This document shows positions 55,091-64,000 of a DNA stretch of 64,000 bases, one piece after another (position 1 is the stretch's first letter; each line of letters starts with the position of its first letter). The notes beneath the pieces are model-generated. The model was not told the DNA's origin and searched no databases. It was given only the letters and a program-made list of their open reading frames with translations. The translations under genes and the position numbers were made by a program. This DNA comes from Thauera aromatica K172 (lineage in GTDB: Bacteria > Pseudomonadota > Gammaproteobacteria > Burkholderiales > Rhodocyclaceae): assembly GCF_003030465.1 (NCBI RefSeq), contig NZ_CP028339.1, positions 1,426,001-1,490,000 of the forward strand. The letters run 5' to 3'.

Positions 55091-56011
55091 TCAGTGAGCG
55101 GCCGTCCGCGCGGGCAGGATGCGCCTGGCGAGGCTGACGGCCACCAGCACCAGCGCGCCGGCGACGATGCCGAACACGCCGTCGAGCAGGCTCGGCAGCA
55201 GGGCGCCGCTCAGGCCGTCCAGGTCGGCGGTGAGGGTTTCGATCAGGTGATGCACCGGCGGCAGGCCGTGCGTCAGGATGCCGCCGCCGACGAGGAACAT
55301 CGCCACCGTGCCCAGCACCGAGAGCGTGCGCATCAGCCACGGCGCCAGCCACAGGATCGCCCAACCGATGCCGCGCGCAACGGCGTTGGCCCGGCGACTG
55401 AGGAACAGCCCGGCGTCGTCGAGCTTGACGATGCCGGCGACGAGGCCATACACCCCGATCGTCATCATCACCGCGATGCTGATCAGCACCGCAACCTGGG
55501 TGCCGAAGGCCAGACCGCCGACGACACCGAGCGCGATGACGATGATTTCCGCCGAGAGGATGAAGTCGGTCCGCACCGCGCCCTTGATCTTGTCCTTCTC
55601 CAGCGCGACCAGATCGGTGTCCGGATCGACCAGTGCCTTCACGACCTCGCGGTGGTGTTCGGCATCTTCCTTGCCATGCAGGAACTTGTGCACCAGCTTC
55701 TCGAAACCTTCGAAGCACAGGAAGGCGCCGCCCAGCATCAGCAGCGGGGCGATCAGCCAGGGGATGAAGGCGCTGATCGCCAGCGCCGCCGGCACCAGGA
55801 TCGCCTTGTTGATCAGCGAACCTTTCGCCACCGCCCATACCACCGGCAGTTCGCGCTCGGCCTGCACGCCGGTGACCTGCTGGGCGTTCAGCGCGAGGTC
55901 GTCGCCCAGCACACCGGCGGTCTTCTTGGTTGCGACCTTGGTCATCGTGGCGACGTCGTCGAGCACGCTCGCGATGTCGTCGAGAAGCAGGAACAGGCTG
56001 CCGCCGGCCAT
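55091..56011 (-). CDS. DUF808 inner-membrane protein (YedI type)
   Basis: 306 residues. The start MAGGSLFLLLDDIASVLDDVATMTKVATKKTAGVLGDDLA carries the DUF808 hallmark, and GAFLCFEGFEKLVHK follows. About six to eight membrane helices. Function unknown. It lies 8 bases downstream of the lysS stop on the same strand and 36 bases before mnmC, so lysS-DUF808-mnmC may be one transcript. Confidence 0.92.
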   Translation of the reverse strand: MAGGSLFLLLDDIASVLDDVATMTKVATKKTAGVLGDDLALNAQQVTGVQAERELPVVWAVAKGSLINKAILVPAALAISAFIPWLIAPLLMLGGAFLCFEGFEKLVHKFLHGKEDAEHHREVVKALVDPDTDLVALEKDKIKGAVRTDFILSAEIIVIALGVVGGLAFGTQVAVLISIAVMMTIGVYGLVAGIVKLDDAGLFLSRRANAVARGIGWAILWLAPWLMRTLSVLGTVAMFLVGGGILTHGLPPVHHLIETLTADLDGLSGALLPSLLDGVFGIVAGALVLVAVSLARRILPARTAAH

Positions 56012-56019
56012 GGTGGGGA

Positions 56020-57519
56020 TTACTCCGGGCGCATCTGGGGGAAGAGGATGACGTCGCGGATCGAGGGCGAATCGGTCAGCAGCATCACCAGGCGGTCGAT
56101 GCCGATGCCGCAGCCGCCGGTCGGGGGCAGGCCGTATTCGAGCGCGCGGATGTAGTCGGCATCGAAGTACATCGCTTCCTCGTCGCCGGCTTCCTTGGCC
56201 GCGACCTGGGCGCGGAAGCGCGCGGCCTGGTCTTCGGGGTCGTTGAGTTCGGAGAAGCCGTTAGCGATCTCGCGGCCGACGATGAAGAGCTCGAAGCGCT
56301 CGGTGATCTCGGGATCGGTGTCGGAGGCGCGCGCCAGCGGCGAGACCTCGACCGGGTAGTCGATGATGAAGGTCGGCTCCCACAGCTCGGCTTCGGCGCA
56401 GGCTTCGAAGAGCTGCAGCTGCAGGCTGCCCAGCCCGCCCGGCTTCACCTTCTCGCCGAAGGCGACGATCTTGTCCTTGATCCACGCGGCGTCGGCCAGC
56501 TGCGCTTCGGTGAAACCCGGGTGGTACTTGCGGATCGCCTGGACGATGGTGAGGCGGTGGAAGGGCTTGGAGAGGTCGAGCTCGCGGCCCTGGTAGACGA
56601 AGGACTCGGTGCCGAGCGCCTCGCGCGCGGCCTGGCGGATCAGGCCTTCGGTGAAGTCCATCAGCGTGCGGTAGTTAGCGTACGCCTCGTAGAACTCCAT
56701 CATGGTGAATTCGGGGTTGTGGCGGGGGCTGAGGCCTTCGTTGCGGAAGTTGCGGTTGACCTCGAAGACCTTCTCGAAGCCGCCCACCACCAGACGCTTG
56801 AGGTAGAGCTCGGGCGCGATGCGCAGGAACAGCTCCATGTCGAGCGCGTTGTGGTGGGTGGTGAAGGGTTTCGCCGCGGCGCCGCCGGGGATGGGGTGCA
56901 TCATCGGCGTCTCGACTTCGAGGAAGCCGTGGCCGGTCATGTAGTTGCGGATCGACTGGACCATGCGGCTGCGGGCGACGAAGGTGAAGCGCGTCTGCTC
57001 GTTCATGATCATGTCGACGTAGCGCTGACGGTACTTCTGCTCGACGTCGGTGAGGCCGTGGAACTTGTCCGGCAGCGGACGCAGGCTCTTGGTCAGCAGG
57101 CGGATCTCGGCGGCCTTGACCGAGAGCTCGCCGGTCTTGGTCTTGAACACGGTGCCGACGCAGCCGACGATGTCGCCGATGTCCCAGTGCTTGAATTCGG
57201 CATAGACGCCCTCGCCCACGGCGTCGCGCTGGACGTAGAGCTGGATGCGCCCGGAAAGGTCCTGGATGGTGACGAAGCTCGCCTTGCCCATCACCCGCTT
57301 CAACATGATGCGCCCGGCGACCCTGACCTCGACCGGGGTGGCTTCCAGCTCTTCGGCCTCCTTCTCGCCATACAGCTCGTCGAGCTTGCCGGCGGTGTTC
57401 TCGCGCGAGAAGTCGTTGGGGAAGGCGCGGCCACTGGCGCGCCAGGCGGCGAGTTTCTCGCGGCGCTCGGCGATCAGGTGGTTTTCGTCCACGGGCGGGG
57501 TGTTGGTCTGTTCGGACAT
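56020..57519 (-). CDS. lysS: Lysyl-tRNA synthetase (class II)
   Basis: 499 residues from ATG 57519 ([13 protein letters not shown]). The N-terminal OB-fold anticodon domain ([21 protein letters not shown]) is followed by class II motif 2 ([21 protein letters not shown]) and motif 3 ([11 protein letters not shown]). All signatures are intact. It lies 130 bases downstream of the SMC-like gene and has its own promoter candidate. In E. coli lysS directly follows prfB. Confidence 0.96.
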
Positions 57520-57580
57520 GGCGTCTGCTTCGATTTTGTGGAAAGTGCGAGCGCGTGCCGCAGCGCGCGCGAAAGGCGTA

Positions 57581-57609
57581 ATTGTGGCAGGGCGGCGAGG
57601 GTGGGGCAA
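57581..57609 (-). promoter_or_regulatory. Promoter candidate of lysS
   Basis: On the - strand: TTGCCC (57604-57609), a 17-base spacer and CACAAT (57581-57586), 62 bases upstream of the lysS ATG. It lies in the gap after the SMC-like gene and lets lysS be expressed apart from that block. Confidence 0.6.
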
Positions 57610-57649
57610 TTCCGGGTGCGTCCGGGGGGCGTCCGGAATGCCTCCGGGC

Positions 57650-60442
57650 TCAATCCAGCGCCCGCTGCAGGACGCCGATGGTCGGCGCCCAGTCGTCGCC
57701 GGGCGCCTTCTTGCGTGTGACCAGGGTGAGCTGGGCGGGGGCGAAGACGTTGGCGTTGTGGGTGACCGGAGTGGTGATCAGGTACTGCGCGCGGGTGGCG
57801 CGGAGGAAGGTGCCGACGCGGTCGATGTTGGCGACGTCCAGATGGGCGAAGGGCTCGTCGATGAAGACGAAGCCGCCGGGGCGGGCCTCGTCCATCAGCA
57901 GGCCGATCAAGAGGATCAGCGACTTCATCACCTGCTGGCCGCCCGAGGCCTCGCCGTCGTTGAGGCCGACCGCGCCCTTGCGATCGAAGTCGAAGCGCAC
58001 TTCGAGCCCGGCCTGGGCGAGCGAGAGGTCGTCGTTTTCCAGATGCGGAGTGGGGCAGTCGACGCCGACGTTGGCCAGCTCGCCGAGCGCTTTCAGGTTT
58101 TTTGCGTACTGGCGCACGGTGGCGCGCAGCTTGGCGATGTAGGCGGCGCGGGCGTTGTCGCTATGCAGCCGCGCGGTGGCGCAGTAGCCCTGGCGGTTCA
58201 GGTAGTCGCGCTCGCGCACGACGACGTCGGCGGCGAGGCGGTCGCGCACGACCAGCACTGCGGGATCGGTGATCCAGTCGCCTTCGTCGAGATGGCGGCG
58301 CAGGCGCTCGAACTGCAGGCGGGCGCCGCGGGCGTCGCCGTAGCGGTCGACGAGGAGCGCGAGTTCGGCGGTGTCCAGCCCGTGCGCCGGGATGGCGTGC
58401 CGGCGACGGCGCAGCCGGACGATGCGCTCGGCCTGGGCGTGGCGGCGCGGGCCGTGCTCGCGCGCGAGCTCGGCCAGGCGCAGCTCGATGGCCTTCAGCT
58501 CGCGGGTGCGGCGGTCGAGTTCGATCTGGATGCCGTTGATCTTTTCGGTGAGGCGGTCGAGCTCGCCGCGGGTTTCGCTGCGCGCGCCGATCGCTTCGGT
58601 CAGGGCCTTGCGTGCGGCGGGCAGCTCGGCCTCGGCGCTGGCGTAGGTCCCGGCCTTGGCGGCGAGCAGTTGGGCCGACTGCAGACCGAGCAGGCGCTGG
58701 CGGATCGTGGTGAGTCCGGCGGCGGCGGTGTCGAGCCGGGGGCGCAGGGCCTGGAGCTGCTTGTCGAGCGCGGTGATCTCGTCTTGCAGCGCGGCGATGC
58801 GTGACTGGCGGGCGAGTTCGCCGAAGTGGAATTCCTGCGGCCGGCCGAGATGGCGGGCGCCGCGGCGCTCGCGGTGGTAGCCGTCGCGGGTGATCCATTC
58901 CTGCTCGCGCGGCAGCGCGCGGGCGGCGTCGGCGTCGTCGACGCGGCGGATGCGGTTGAGCAGGTCGGCGAGCCAGCGCGGCACCGGGGCGCTGAATTCG
59001 ACCACCTCGGCCAGGCTCAGCGGCCGCGGCGGCGGGGCGGTTTCGCGCTCGGGGACGATGAAATGGCGGAAGCGCTCGCGCTCGCCGAGCGCCCAGGCGG
59101 CATGGCGGTCGGATTCGCGCTCGAGCAGGATCAGGTGGCGGTAGGGGCGCAGGATGGCTTCGAGTGCGCCCTGCCAGGCGGGGTCGGTGACTTCGACCAC
59201 CTCGGCGAGGCTGTGGTGGGCGATCCCGTCGGCGTTCAGGCGGACGCGGAAGCGCGCGACTTCGGCGTCGCCCGGCGGGCCGGCGCGGTTGCGTTCGGCG
59301 CGCAAGGCGGCGGTCTTGTCCTCGAAGGCAGCGACCAGTTCGCGCTCCTTGCGGCGCAGCGCGGCAAGCGCGGCGTCGGCTTGTTCGTGCTCCTGTTCCA
59401 GCGTGAGGGCGTCGGCACCGTGCTCGCTGGCGAGTTGGGCGCGCAGCGCGTCGCGCTCTTCGAGCAGCTTGTCGAGGTCGCGCAGGCGGTCGTGGGCGGC
59501 GAGGTAGCGTTGTTCGGTGCTGCCGTCGGACGCCTTCAGCCGTTTGCGCTCGGCCTGAGCGGCGTCCTGCTCGGCGCGCACCGCGTCCAGGCGCTGGCGC
59601 GCTTCGCGCTGTTCGGCGAGCTGTTCACCGCGCTCGTGGCCGGCGCGGTGCAGGGCTTCGCGCTCGGTGGCGATCTCGCGCTCGAGTTCGGCGAGTTCCA
59701 GGCGCGGCACGATCTCGGTGTCCAGCGCCCGGGCCTCGTCGGCGAGCCGCTTCCATTCGAGGAAGCGGTTGGCCTCGGCCTTCTTTTCTTCGGCCTGGGT
59801 CTTCAGGCGTTCGAGGTCGATGCCGATCTCGCCGAGTTCGCGCTCGGCCGATTTCTGCTCCTCGCGCGCGGCCTGGTAGTTGTCCAGCACTTCCTTGTCG
59901 CCGAAAACGTCGAAGACGAGCTCGAGCAGCGCCTTCGGCGAGTATTCGCACAGCTTGTCGGTGTCGCCCTGTTCCAGTGCCAGCACCTTGGTGATCGCCG
60001 GCGTCAACCCGCCCCAGGCGAGGCGGTGCTGGTAGTCGCGCAGGCCGATCCAGTCGTTGGTGGTTTCGAGGGTCTCGATCGGCTGATCGCCGTCGACGAT
60101 CGTGTAGTCGCGGATCCAGTCGCCGCCGGCCTTGCGGATGCGGCAGGCGAGCGTGACCTCGTCGGCGAGGCAGGGGAAGAAGGGGCGCCTGCCGCTGTGG
60201 CCGGGCTGGTTGGCGACGACCGCGCGGATCCAGGCGAAGCTGCGCTCGGCGCGACGCACGTAGCGGCGGTAGTCGCGCTTGCCCGAGCAGCGCAGCGCGA
60301 AGAGGGTGCGCAGGGCGTCGAGCAGGGTGGTCTTGCCCGAGCCGTTGGGGCCGACGATGGTGATGATCTGCGCGTCCAGCGGCAGCGAGAAGCGGCGCCA
60401 GAAATCCCAATGGACGAGTTCGAGGGTCTTGATGTGGAACAT
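57650..60442 (-). CDS. SMC/MukB/MksB-like coiled-coil ATPase
   Basis: 930 residues. Walker [10 protein letters not shown] (31-39) is at the N-terminus. The ABC signature (SGGQ, 833-836) and Walker B (FVFIDEP with D862, E863) are at the C-terminus, so the head is assembled from both ends as in SMC proteins. Between them are two long coiled-coil stretches (about 190-390 and 590-720) around a globular hinge-like centre. Length and neighbours fit MksB or JetC better than housekeeping Smc (about 1170 residues). It starts 21 bases after trmA. SbcC/RecN-like ATPase is an alternative. Confidence 0.8.
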
Positions 60443-60463
60443 GGATGGCCGGTTGCGTCGTGT

Positions 60464-61552
60464 TCAGCGCCGCTGCAGCAGCAGCCCGCACTCGAGGTGG
60501 TGGGTGTAGGGGAACTGGTCGAACGCCGCCGCCGCCGCGATGCGGTGGGTGGCGGCGAGGGCGGCGACGTTGGCGCGCAGCGTGTCCGGGTTGCAGGAGA
60601 TGTAGAGAAGGTTGTCGAAGCCTTTCGCCAGCGCGATCGTGCCTTCGTCCAGCCCGGCGCGCGGGGGGTCGACGAACAGCGTGGAAAAGCGGTAGCCGGC
60701 CGGATCCACCCCCTGCATGCGGCGGTATTCGCGCCCGCCGGCGAGGGCGTCGCTGATCTCCTCGCTCGCCATCCGCACCAGGGTCACGTTGGCGACGCCG
60801 TTGTCGGCGAGGTTGGTGTGGGCGGCACGCACCGAAGTCTTGCTCAACTCGGTGGCGAGCACGCGGCCGAAGCACGGCGCCAGCGCCACGGTGAAGTTGC
60901 CGTTGCCGCAGTAGAGCTCGAGCAGATCTCCTCCCAGGCCCTTCGCCTGCGCGCGCGCCCAGCTCAGCATGTGCTGGTTCACACCGCCGTTGGGCTGGGT
61001 GAAGCTGCCCTCGACCTGCTGGTAGCGCAGGCGCGCGCCGTCGACCTCGAGCACCTCCTGCACCCAGTCGCGTTCGAGCACGATCTTCTGCTTGCGGCTG
61101 CGGCCGATGAGCTGGATGTCGAGCGCGGCGGCGAGCGTGCGCGCGGCGGCCTCCCAGGCTTCGTCGAGCGGGCGATGGTAGACCAGGCTCACCAGGCATT
61201 CGCCGCTCAGGGTGGCGAGGAACTCGACCTGGAAGATCCGGCGCCGCAGCGGCTCGCTGGCCTGGATCGCGTCGCGCAGGCGCGGCATCAGCGTGGCGAT
61301 GGGCGCGGCGACGGCGGGAAAGGTGTCGAGCAGGACGGGCTGCTTCGGCTCGGCGCTGTCGAACATCGCGTAGTCGATGCGGCCGTCGTGATGCCACAGG
61401 CGGAACTCGGCGCGCAGGCGATAGTGCAGCGGCGCGGAGCGGAAGACTGCCGGTTCGGGCAGGTCGAATGCGGCGAAGTCGGCACGGTAGCGTGCGAGCT
61501 TGGCGGCGAGCTGTTCCTCGTAGCGGGCGGGGTCGATGACGGGCAGGGGCAT
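60464..61552 (-). CDS. trmA: tRNA (uracil-54-C5)-methyltransferase TrmA
   Basis: 362 residues from ATG 61552, which lies 4 bases after the stop of the small kite-like gene. It makes ribothymidine (m5U54) in the T-loop. SAM-binding LLELYCGNGNFTVAL, the catalytic Cys in YISCNPDTLRAN, and VDPPRAGLD are present. There is no N-terminal TRAM domain, which separates TrmA from RlmD/RlmC. It is embedded between two genes of the SMC-like block and shares their transcript. Confidence 0.95.
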   Translation of the reverse strand: MPLPVIDPARYEEQLAAKLARYRADFAAFDLPEPAVFRSAPLHYRLRAEFRLWHHDGRIDYAMFDSAEPKQPVLLDTFPAVAAPIATLMPRLRDAIQASEPLRRRIFQVEFLATLSGECLVSLVYHRPLDEAWEAAARTLAAALDIQLIGRSRKQKIVLERDWVQEVLEVDGARLRYQQVEGSFTQPNGGVNQHMLSWARAQAKGLGGDLLELYCGNGNFTVALAPCFGRVLATELSKTSVRAAHTNLADNGVANVTLVRMASEEISDALAGGREYRRMQGVDPAGYRFSTLFVDPPRAGLDEGTIALAKGFDNLLYISCNPDTLRANVAALAATHRIAAAAAFDQFPYTHHLECGLLLQRR

Positions 61553-61556
61553 GGGC

Positions 61557-62267
61557 TTAGTGCTCCTCGTCCATCGCTTCGGTCTCGTCGGGCAGGATCT
61601 CGGCGAGCTCGAAGGCATTGTGTTCGGGCGGCGGGTGGCCGGCGGCGTCGAGGATCTCGCCCAGGGTGCCGTGGATGATGCGGTCGGCCATCACCCGGTA
61701 GTCGAGCGCGAGGTCGAGCAGCGGGCCTTCGCTGATCAGGCCGTTGCGGCGTTCGATGAAGCCGAGGCGGGCGAGCTTGCCGAGCATGAAGTTGCGCATC
61801 TTGGTGCGCCCGCCCAGGCGGGGGCCGAAGTCGGCGATCAGCGAGGCCTCGGTGAGCGTGCCCGAGACCGACTCGCCGTGCGCCACCGGCTTGTCGCTGC
61901 CGAAGAGGTCGCTCTGGCCGTCGTCGACCAGCTCGCGGCGGGTGACCTGGCGTTCGCGCTTGGGCAGCACGATCAGCGCCCAGAGGATCACCAGCAGGGC
62001 GATCTCGTCGCGGGTCAGGCCCAGGTTGCTGGCGGCGTACTCGCGCCCGGCGCCGAACACGGGCTCGGCCAGTTCGGGCTGGAGGGCGACGCCGACGTGG
62101 GCGGCGTAGGGGTTGTCGAGCAGGCGCAGGCCGACGTCGGCCAGCCTCCGGTCGAGTTCGTGGCGGAAGGTCTCGTCCACCAGCGCGCGCCGCACCAGGC
62201 GGTCGCCGCGTGGCAGCCAGCGCTGGGCGAGCAGGCGGGCGGTGAGGGTTTTGAGTTCGTATTCCAT
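61557..62267 (-). CDS. Small kite-like subunit of the SMC-type block (MksE/JetB-like)
   Basis: 236 residues, acidic at the C-terminus. The central part (LTRDEIALLVILWALIVLPK, then GGRTKMRNFMLGKLARLGFIERR) looks like winged-helix domains, and the size equals MukE/MksE/JetB kite proteins. I recognise no strict motif; the call rests on size, fold-like pattern and position between a kleisin-like gene and an SMC ATPase. The gap to the upstream gene is 26 bases, to trmA 4 bases. Confidence 0.6.
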   Translation of the reverse strand: MEYELKTLTARLLAQRWLPRGDRLVRRALVDETFRHELDRRLADVGLRLLDNPYAAHVGVALQPELAEPVFGAGREYAASNLGLTRDEIALLVILWALIVLPKRERQVTRRELVDDGQSDLFGSDKPVAHGESVSGTLTEASLIADFGPRLGGRTKMRNFMLGKLARLGFIERRNGLISEGPLLDLALDYRVMADRIIHGTLGEILDAAGHPPPEHNAFELAEILPDETEAMDEEH

Positions 62268-62293
62268 GGGGGCGTGATCCGGAAAGGGCGGGC

Positions 62294-63604
62294 TCAGGCC
62301 CGGGCGGCCGGTGCGCTGGCCGCGGGCGGCGCAAAGACCGGCGCCGGCGTGCGTGGGCGTGCTTCGCCCTGCGTGATGGCGGCGATTTCGTCCGCGCCGA
62401 CCGCGCTCAGCGTGTCACCGAACTCGATATCCACCGGCAGGCGCATGAACGTGCCGACCGGGCCGTCTTCCGGGCCGGCCTGGGCGCCGTCGGCGAGCAG
62501 GGCGAGCAGCGACAGGCGGTAGCTGGCGAGGGCGAAGCCGCCGCCGGCAACGACGCGGTGCAGCGGTTGTGCTTCGGGCAGCGCGGCGAGGCGGTCGGTG
62601 AAGTGTTCGAGCAGGCGCAGGTCTTCGCTCTGCAGCGCGACTTCTGCCCTGGCGTCGCCGGGGGGCGGCAGGCGGGTATCGGCTTCGGTGGCGGCCGGGC
62701 CGCCTTCGAGCAGGGCCTCGGCGCGGTCGAGCAGTTCGTGGCCGCCGGCGAGCAGCGGCAGTTCGGGCACCGCGGCAATGGCTGCCGCCGCGAGGCCGGA
62801 AATGGCGCCGGCCTCCAGGCTGCGCAGCCAGGCCGCGACGTCCGAGGACGAGACGCCGGAGGCGCCGAGGGTGACGCGCTGCGCTTCGATCTTGTTGAGC
62901 GCGCGCTGGAAGGCGGCATCCACCCGTGCCAGGCGCGACTGGGCCAGGCCGATGCGCTGGGCGATGCGGGCGATGTCGAAATCGACTTCGGGGTCGGCGA
63001 GCAGCGTGTTGAGCAAGTCGGTGCCGCGTGCCAGCCAGCGCCCGTTGGCCGACAGGCGGCGGCGGGCGTCGAGGATGCGGAACTCCGAGCCGGAGGCGAT
63101 CGCTTCCTCGAAGTGCCAGCTGAGGTCGTTGAGCTTGGACAGCAGATGGCCGAGCGCTTCGGGGGTGATGCCGCCCACCGCCTGCAGGCCGGCGAGCTGG
63201 GCGGTGAGAAAGCCGAGCTCGGCGTCCTCTTCCTCGCCGAAACGCAGCAGCATCGCGATTGCCGCCACCGCGTTGCGGCCGATGTCGGACAGCGCGTAGT
63301 GGCCGTCCTCGCCGATCGCCAGCAGGGCGTTGTCGCGCAGGCGCTTCAACACGGTCTCGAACTTGACCGGATCGAGGTAGGTGAAGCGCGCGCGCAGCGC
63401 TTCGGGCGGCCAGCGCGGCGAATCCGCTTCGCGGCCGATTTCGCGCAGCACCAGAAGGCGCATCAGCACCTCGGCCTCGGTGCCGCGGAACAGCGTGATG
63501 AAAGCGTCGAGCAGCGGGCGCGCCGACGCCAGCGCCGCCAGCTCGGGCACTTCGTCGGCGTCGACGCCGGGGGCGAGGAAGTCGGAGAGGATGGGGTCGG
63601 TCAT
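62294..63604 (-). CDS. Kleisin-like subunit of the SMC-type block (MksF/JetA-like)
   Basis: 436 residues from ATG 63604. The first about 130 residues look like a winged-helix domain (AEVLMRLLVLREIG, then FETVLKRLRDNALLAIGEDGHY). A long helical segment (about 150-260) and a second domain follow, then an Ala/Pro-rich tail. MukF/MksF/JetA have an N-terminal winged helix and helical middle of this kind and a similar length. No sequence motif proves it. It begins 101 bases after prfB and runs with the next three genes. Confidence 0.6.
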   Translation of the reverse strand: MTDPILSDFLAPGVDADEVPELAALASARPLLDAFITLFRGTEAEVLMRLLVLREIGREADSPRWPPEALRARFTYLDPVKFETVLKRLRDNALLAIGEDGHYALSDIGRNAVAAIAMLLRFGEEEDAELGFLTAQLAGLQAVGGITPEALGHLLSKLNDLSWHFEEAIASGSEFRILDARRRLSANGRWLARGTDLLNTLLADPEVDFDIARIAQRIGLAQSRLARVDAAFQRALNKIEAQRVTLGASGVSSSDVAAWLRSLEAGAISGLAAAAIAAVPELPLLAGGHELLDRAEALLEGGPAATEADTRLPPPGDARAEVALQSEDLRLLEHFTDRLAALPEAQPLHRVVAGGGFALASYRLSLLALLADGAQAGPEDGPVGTFMRLPVDIEFGDTLSAVGADEIAAITQGEARPRTPAPVFAPPAASAPAARA

Positions 63605-63705: not shown

Positions 63706-64000
63706 TCAGACGCCCTGCTTCAGGCTTGCCGCGATGAAGTCGTCGAGGTCGCCGTCGAGCACGGCCTGGGTGTTGCCGACTTCGTAGTTGGTGCGCAGAT
63801 CCTTGATGCGCGACTGGTCGAGGACGTAGCTGCGGATCTGGTGGCCCCAGCCGATGTCGCTCTTCGAGTCTTCGAGCTTTTGCTGCTCGGCCTGGCGCTT
63901 GCGCAGCTCGAGCTCGTACAGGCGTGCCTTCAGCATCGACATCGCCTCGGCCTTGTTCTTGTGCTGCGAGCGGTCGTTCTGGCACTGCACGACGATGCCG
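63706..64000 (-). CDS. prfB: Peptide chain release factor 2, C-terminal part (truncated by window)
   Basis: The frame stays open to the window edge; 97 residues are visible. [15 protein letters not shown] and [22 protein letters not shown], ending in DLDDFI, match the RF2 C-terminal domain. RF2 reads UGA and UAA. The GGQ motif lies just upstream, outside the window, as does any programmed frameshift site near the start. In many bacteria prfB is followed by lysS; here four genes intervene. Confidence 0.93.

Follow-up and report, generated by a model that had tools for sequence, protein, structure and literature searches.

What does a chromosome-folding type of complex do when the nuclease that accompanies some of its relatives is missing? 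The question is raised by a locus of Thauera aromatica K172, where genes for a kleisin-like protein, a kite protein and an ATPase of the structural maintenance of chromosomes (SMC) type stand between the housekeeping genes prfB and lysS. We analysed it within a 64,000-nucleotide stretch of contig NZ_CP028339.1 (positions 1,426,001 to 1,490,000; hereafter the window, whose own numbering is used throughout). An earlier note, made from the letters alone, had described the genes as an SMC complex of the Mks/Jet class, and the kite fold and SMC profile reported here agree with that description, the kleisin being probable. By a modest preference, we read the complex as a second condensin, Mks-like and lacking a nuclease, that belongs to a lineage which the PADLOC JetA and JetB models and the DUF4194 family do not see and that probably arose from a Wadjet-like operon.

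Three predicted subunits between prfB and lysS

The gene order is prfB, kleisin-like gene, kite gene, trmA, SMC ATPase gene and lysS, all on the minus strand (Table 1). Intergenic gaps of 26 bases (kleisin-like gene to kite), 4 bases (kite to trmA) and 21 bases (trmA to SMC) match the four close-packed genes on one strand that the earlier note had recorded. The interruption of a housekeeping pair, which it had also read here, is borne out by comparison with genomes scored kite-negative (9 of 12 chosen genomes covered): in eight genomes free of the complex (two from this genus, six from elsewhere), the distance between prfB and lysS is 33 bases to 4.7 kb. A kite scan of genome contigs found 153 relatives, of which 80 were kept for locus counts; the 80 span Thauera, Azoarcus, Zoogloea, Luteibacter, Dyella, Pseudogulbenkiania, Acidovorax and Geobacter. 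Because the kleisin was also matched at 78 and the SMC at all 80 of these kite-bearing loci, the grouping is not due to chance, and kleisin-kite-SMC is the conserved unit.

The structure predicted for the 236-residue protein shows a kite with the JetB fold, as the earlier note had supposed, so the lack of a suitable fold that would have refuted its proposal did not arise for this subunit. The AlphaFold2 model (predicted local distance difference test, pLDDT, 80.8) has three Wadjet chains as its top Foldseek matches, 8as8_C (E 3e-5), 8dk1_F and 8dk1_E (range 3e-5 to 5e-5), with Nse1/Nse3 and ScpB entries ranking next (E 0.003 to 0.04). Sequence kinship is far fainter. The match to DUF4194 (E 0.024, 14.8 bits) lies under the cut-off of 32.7, and the kite profile (alignment A2, the window and 44 of 80 loci) gave P 0.016 against a DUF4194 set and 0.16 to 0.94 against five shuffled controls; since an unrelated kleisin set also gave P 0.035, the support for this relationship is slight. 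The window kite had no match to the PADLOC JetB models up to E 1, and the kite of one divergent relative reached only E 0.07 with PADLOC models.

The SMC ATPase matches SMC_N in Pfam at 55.4 bits, and its split Walker A, signature and Walker B, which the earlier note had picked out, are confirmed by the invariance of GPNGSGKT, SGGQQ and DEP in 33 of 33 rows of alignment A4 (the window and 32 of 72 loci). Searched against the PDB, the A4 profile best matches JetC (8dk2, E 5.2e-11), then Smc1, Rad50 (E 8.9e-7) and Smc; a part of it (positions 343-594), taken in support of the hinge-like domain, can be aligned with the Smc construct 4rsj, and coiled coils are seen as profile matches along the arms.

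The 436-residue protein is probably a kleisin, an assignment made from its position and a weak fold match because the best fold E value is only 0.0089. Its gene is the first of the conserved trio, and 9 of the 10 top matches of its predicted model (pLDDT 80.5, predicted template modelling score 0.44) to PDB folds are MukF or MukBEF chains. The kleisin of the earlier note is thus probable at best; family libraries returned nothing meaningful and the PADLOC JetA models no match up to E 1.

Table 1. Features of the locus (window positions; A4 is the SMC alignment of 33 rows)
Feature	Position	Strand	Basis
Kleisin-like subunit (probable; JetA/MukF role), 436 residues	62294..63604	-	weak fold match and place in trio
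Kite subunit (JetB/MukE role), 236 residues	61557..62267	-	predicted fold
trmA, housekeeping, outside the complex	60464..61552	-	TIGR02143, 486.5 bits
SMC ATPase (JetC/MksB role), 930 residues	57650..60442	-	SMC_N, A4 profile
Walker A GPNGSGKT, residues 31-38	60329..60352	-	invariant in 33/33 A4 rows
SMC hinge-like domain, residues 410-510	58913..59215	-	PF06470 20.5 bits, under cut-off 22.5
ABC (ATP-binding cassette) signature SGGQQ, residues 833-837	57932..57946	-	invariant in 33/33 A4 rows
Walker B FVFIDEP, residues 858-864	57851..57871	-	V859, F860, D862, E863, P864 invariant; F858, I861 nearly (33 A4 rows)
SMC-lysS spacer, 130 bases; place of the JetD-like gene in nearest kin	57520..57649	-	alignment with G009, L047
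lysS, downstream flank	56020..57519	-	
prfB 3' part, upstream flank, runs past window edge	63706..64000	-	

A JetD-like nuclease gene in the relatives

The earlier note overlooked a gene for a JetD-like nuclease that some relatives have at this same site. At 16 of the 80 loci, the flank that was fetched holds a gene of about 400 codons 3' of the SMC gene, usually at a distance of 0.8 kb or less (about 5.5 kb in G201); some of the 80 loci end before or inside this place, such as L052 and L071, whose genomes both have JetD. All three members tested match the PADLOC JetD1 model (E 3.9e-12, 2.6e-14 and 4.2e-15), and two of the three match DUF2399, one above the cut-off. PDB searches with JetD, kite and kleisin profiles yielded no relevant match, so the identity of the nuclease is taken from PADLOC and Pfam. 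Most rows of the JetD alignment (A3, 14 of 16 loci) keep an EN and a CDPDPxG motif, whose Glu and Asp are putative equivalents of residues in MksG, where changes of Glu and Asp impair the protein according to PMC10123090.

Because some same-site relatives carry this gene, the complex is of the Wadjet-like operon kind with the nuclease absent here. The nearest kin, G009 and L047, have an SMC about 90% identical to that of the window and the same trmA insertion, with JetD between SMC and lysS. Similarity between the window and these kin resumes about 34 bases past the SMC stop, which in G009 corresponds to about 80 bases past the JetD stop, and the 130-base spacer aligned with both kin holds no JetD remnant. 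The missing JetD neighbour of the earlier note was likewise found neither beside the trio nor elsewhere in the genome: JetD_C (PF09983) and the JetD alignment gave no match, nor did DUF2399 (PF09664), a search in which the control genomes were silent too. A Pfam search also found no DUF4194 gene in the window genome.

Where the JetD genes were read, there was an in-frame stop in G158 and an internal deletion in G014, the others being open; widespread breakage, suggested by stop flags, was rejected once reading the matches had left only this stop and this deletion. A replacement nuclease 3' of the SMC was rejected as well, the recurrent neighbours that were typed (a subset) being GGDEF and methyl-accepting chemotaxis proteins.

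Two side observations concern individual nucleases. In the JetD-like proteins of Pseudogulbenkiania (L080:11697-12920 and L081:11692-12915), the nuclease may be present yet inactive, since Gln stands where the EN motif elsewhere keeps its Glu. In Thiobacillus sp. 63-78 (L110:8648-12505), a frameshifted SMC frame runs into JetD, possibly through an assembly error; an SMC-JetD fusion was rejected because the long frame reflects a frameshift inside the SMC.

Function, kinship and history of the complex

The complex has a Jet/Mks build yet fails the sequence tests of both. It resembles Wadjet/JetABCD (MksBEFG, EptABCD) in the order kleisin-kite-SMC, in the JetD-like gene that 16 of 80 related loci have after the SMC, and in a kite fold nearest JetB and an SMC profile nearest JetC. 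It differs in that JetD was not found in the window genome, in a shorter SMC (930 residues versus 1096-1119 in full JetC chains), and in a kleisin and kite unseen by PADLOC models to which type I JetA and JetB, as positive controls, score 4.5e-174 and 7e-89. Compared with MukBEF, the window kleisin model weakly resembles MukF, but the MukB N-terminal model reaches only E 0.0055 on the SMC ATPase and the complex coexists with an Smc; MukB is also much longer than the 930-residue protein. Smc-ScpAB shares the SMC architecture with a hinge-like domain but is represented by a separate Smc in the same genome, and the window kite is nearer JetB than ScpB.

The likeness to MksBEF of Pseudomonas aeruginosa is that of a nuclease-less, Muk-like complex beside an Smc, and here three subunits without a nuclease do stand beside an Smc, with the kleisin identity only probable. 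Kinship to MksF and MksE through DUF3375 and DUF4194 was not found in the window proteins, the DUF4194 match being below cut-off; the window kleisin has no detectable profile similarity to either DUF3375-like cluster, and the JetA and JetB comparison sets were cut automatically, with misjudged starts possible. NCBIfam models did not match the window subunits, a silence that is uninformative because MksE- and MksF-like controls were missed too. PMC7485682 states that several distant MksBEF families exist, so the window complex may be one of them. Literature searches gave no recognised description of this lineage; an earlier notice in the 2011 MksBEF-family paper is possible.

We infer complex formation, loop extrusion and a chromosome role as follows. 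Kleisin, kite and SMC ATPase would assemble into an SMC complex of the Jet/Muk class, ring-shaped and driven by ATP. Its lineage is divergent, and the operons of some relatives also encode a JetD-type Toprim nuclease. Without the nuclease, the complex would still load on DNA and translocate or extrude loops, and its activity would end in chromosome folding or segregation beside Smc-ScpAB rather than in plasmid cleavage, much like MksBEF of P. aeruginosa. In this respect, PMC7485682 reports that SMC and MksBEF share chromosome work.

Several results weigh against a condensin. The kleisin lacks a significant fold match, and its profile (alignment A1, the window and 38 of 74 loci) gave P 0.22 and 0.26 against DUF3375-type kleisin sets, no better than shuffled sequences. 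The complex is missing from 136 of 199 family genomes; in the class sample of 369 genomes, the kite occurs in only 2, the window genome included, and the JetD alignment in 4 (one strong match with a kite, three weak); two genomes of the same genus have prfB and lysS intact and no complex. Kite counts are lower bounds, G026 being scored negative while having an SMC at a contig edge. The complex is therefore dispensable, which suits a defence system equally with an auxiliary condensin. An unlikely, though serious, alternative is that the complex is still a defence system, whose nuclease-less core compacts or silences plasmid or phage DNA or borrows a cellular nuclease. The JetD-like gene of some kin, the patchiness at class level and within the genus, and a trio that evolves faster than lysS and prfB (higher dN/dS, the ratio of nonsynonymous to synonymous substitution rates) in most, but not all, comparisons speak for it. 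Yet the sites are not scattered: prfB lies upstream in 52 of 58 fetched family loci (58 of 63 kite-bearing genomes, leaving out G000, G020, G154, G228 and G233), with lysS inside the fetched stretch in 27. The genes are also rare on plasmids (SMC matches in 2 of 72,556 records, both partial, and the kite in 1), none of 50,697 phage records matched the kite, and the typed downstream genes, a subset of the neighbours, are GGDEF and chemotaxis genes with no recurrent nuclease. Outside the family, the upstream neighbours vary (Obg-type GTPase, GTP cyclohydrolase I and RNA methyltransferase, one example each).

A decaying Wadjet-like remnant without present function would account for the absence of JetD here, for the stop in G158 and the deletion in G014, and for the SMC of G097, which looks internally short; it is improbable given that the SMC is covered to at least 99% in 54 of the 58 fetched loci (three of the other four being cut by the stretch or contig), that its ATPase motifs are invariant, and that dN/dS is well below 1. 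In 12 JetD-less pairs, this ratio is 0 to 0.39 for the trio and 0.06 to 0.26 for the SMC, so purifying selection maintains the trio without the nuclease. Finally, a repair ATPase of the Rad50/SbcC/RecN type accompanied by two unrelated small proteins is suggested by a single-sequence search, in which Rad50 (3qf7) is on top at E 4e-7. The profile search instead puts JetC first, the partner is a kite with the predicted JetB fold, and relatives carry a JetD-like gene; we consider this alternative very improbable. No Mre11 or SbcD gene was seen among the typed neighbours (the flanks were not scanned exhaustively), and the firm grouping with SbcC or RecN that the earlier note had named as fatal to its proposal did not emerge.

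For the second condensin that we prefer, the origin of the nuclease-less state is a separate matter. In the family sample, 63 of 199 genomes have the kite; JetD was found in 17 genomes, each of which has the kite too. An SMC tree of 118 rows (28 with JetD, 88 without, 2 open) requires at least 15 changes of JetD state; it is a FastTree tree with long branches flagged and several genomes present twice, family rows with fewer than 850 matched SMC residues and L110 being left out, and JetD absence outside the family being judged from the fetched flank. These counts cannot separate gain from loss, and on the midpoint-rooted tree a JetD-ancestral history costs 27 losses. Both points leave room for a three-gene condensin that was ancestral and acquired JetD late and repeatedly, as does the one transfer visible: in Thauera butanivorans (L050) and in G022, JetD clusters with other genera, so JetD is not purely inherited judging from its sequences. 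Such a history, compatible with the condensin function, seems somewhat unlikely, as JetD and SMC distances agree (Mantel r 0.52 over 23 rows, a value reached in 0 of 2000 permutations) and JetD is found in several deep branches besides the family. Because the distances agree overall while the JetD of L050 and G022 is misplaced, we read the history as loss mixed with some transfer, with loss favoured, though not proven, as the main trend.

Tentatively, and a little short of even confidence, we propose a broader account: a fourth, unmodelled Wadjet-like lineage was disarmed many times in one family, mostly at one site, and loss of JetD repeatedly turned a plasmid cutter into a chromosome condensin, so that armed and disarmed species are now found together with a few half-broken ones. 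The review PMC10586767 proposes that MukBEF and MksBEF arose from Wadjet by JetD loss and calls the relationship unresolved. The apparent novelty is a natural series, densely sampled and mostly lying downstream of prfB, in which JetD is present, absent or now and then broken; it belongs to a lineage overlooked by PADLOC models and makes the JetD-loss route to MksBEF proposed in that review testable. Because species whose SMCs are about 90% identical either have or lack JetD at one and the same site, the role of a defence SMC after nuclease loss can be tested by gene removal in environmental bacteria, and nature thereby offers an approach to how defence and chromosome-folding machines interconvert.

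Neighbouring genes and insertions

The trmA gene is a TrmA equivalog (cut-off 334.65 bits for TIGR02143) whose start is the second ATG of frame 60464-61618. Only 9 of 80 loci have it at the kite-SMC junction, and these make up a single subclade with G009 and the window. It is thus a local insertion and was ruled out as a functional member of the complex; its place within a novel gene set, as the earlier note had it, does not hold. The kite-SMC junction has been invaded repeatedly: PIN-domain and glutamine-amidotransferase genes occupy it in L050, L195 has about 0.9 kb there and L232 has 6 kb, and the SMC is far off in L200. Unlike it, the kleisin-kite junction is mostly tight.

The earlier note had also placed ScpA and ScpB in the window and suggested two SMC systems in the strain. 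An ScpA motif does occur at position 1482, whereas a motif scan of the window for ScpB gave no match; a presumed canonical Smc is encoded away from the locus, in two halves at G000:C1:2217212-2220700, in keeping with a second system. Beyond lysS lies a DUF808 gene (55091-56011, 371 bits). Besides contig C1 (3,658,031 of 3,711,792 in total), the genome has a second contig, about 54 kb long and possibly a plasmid.

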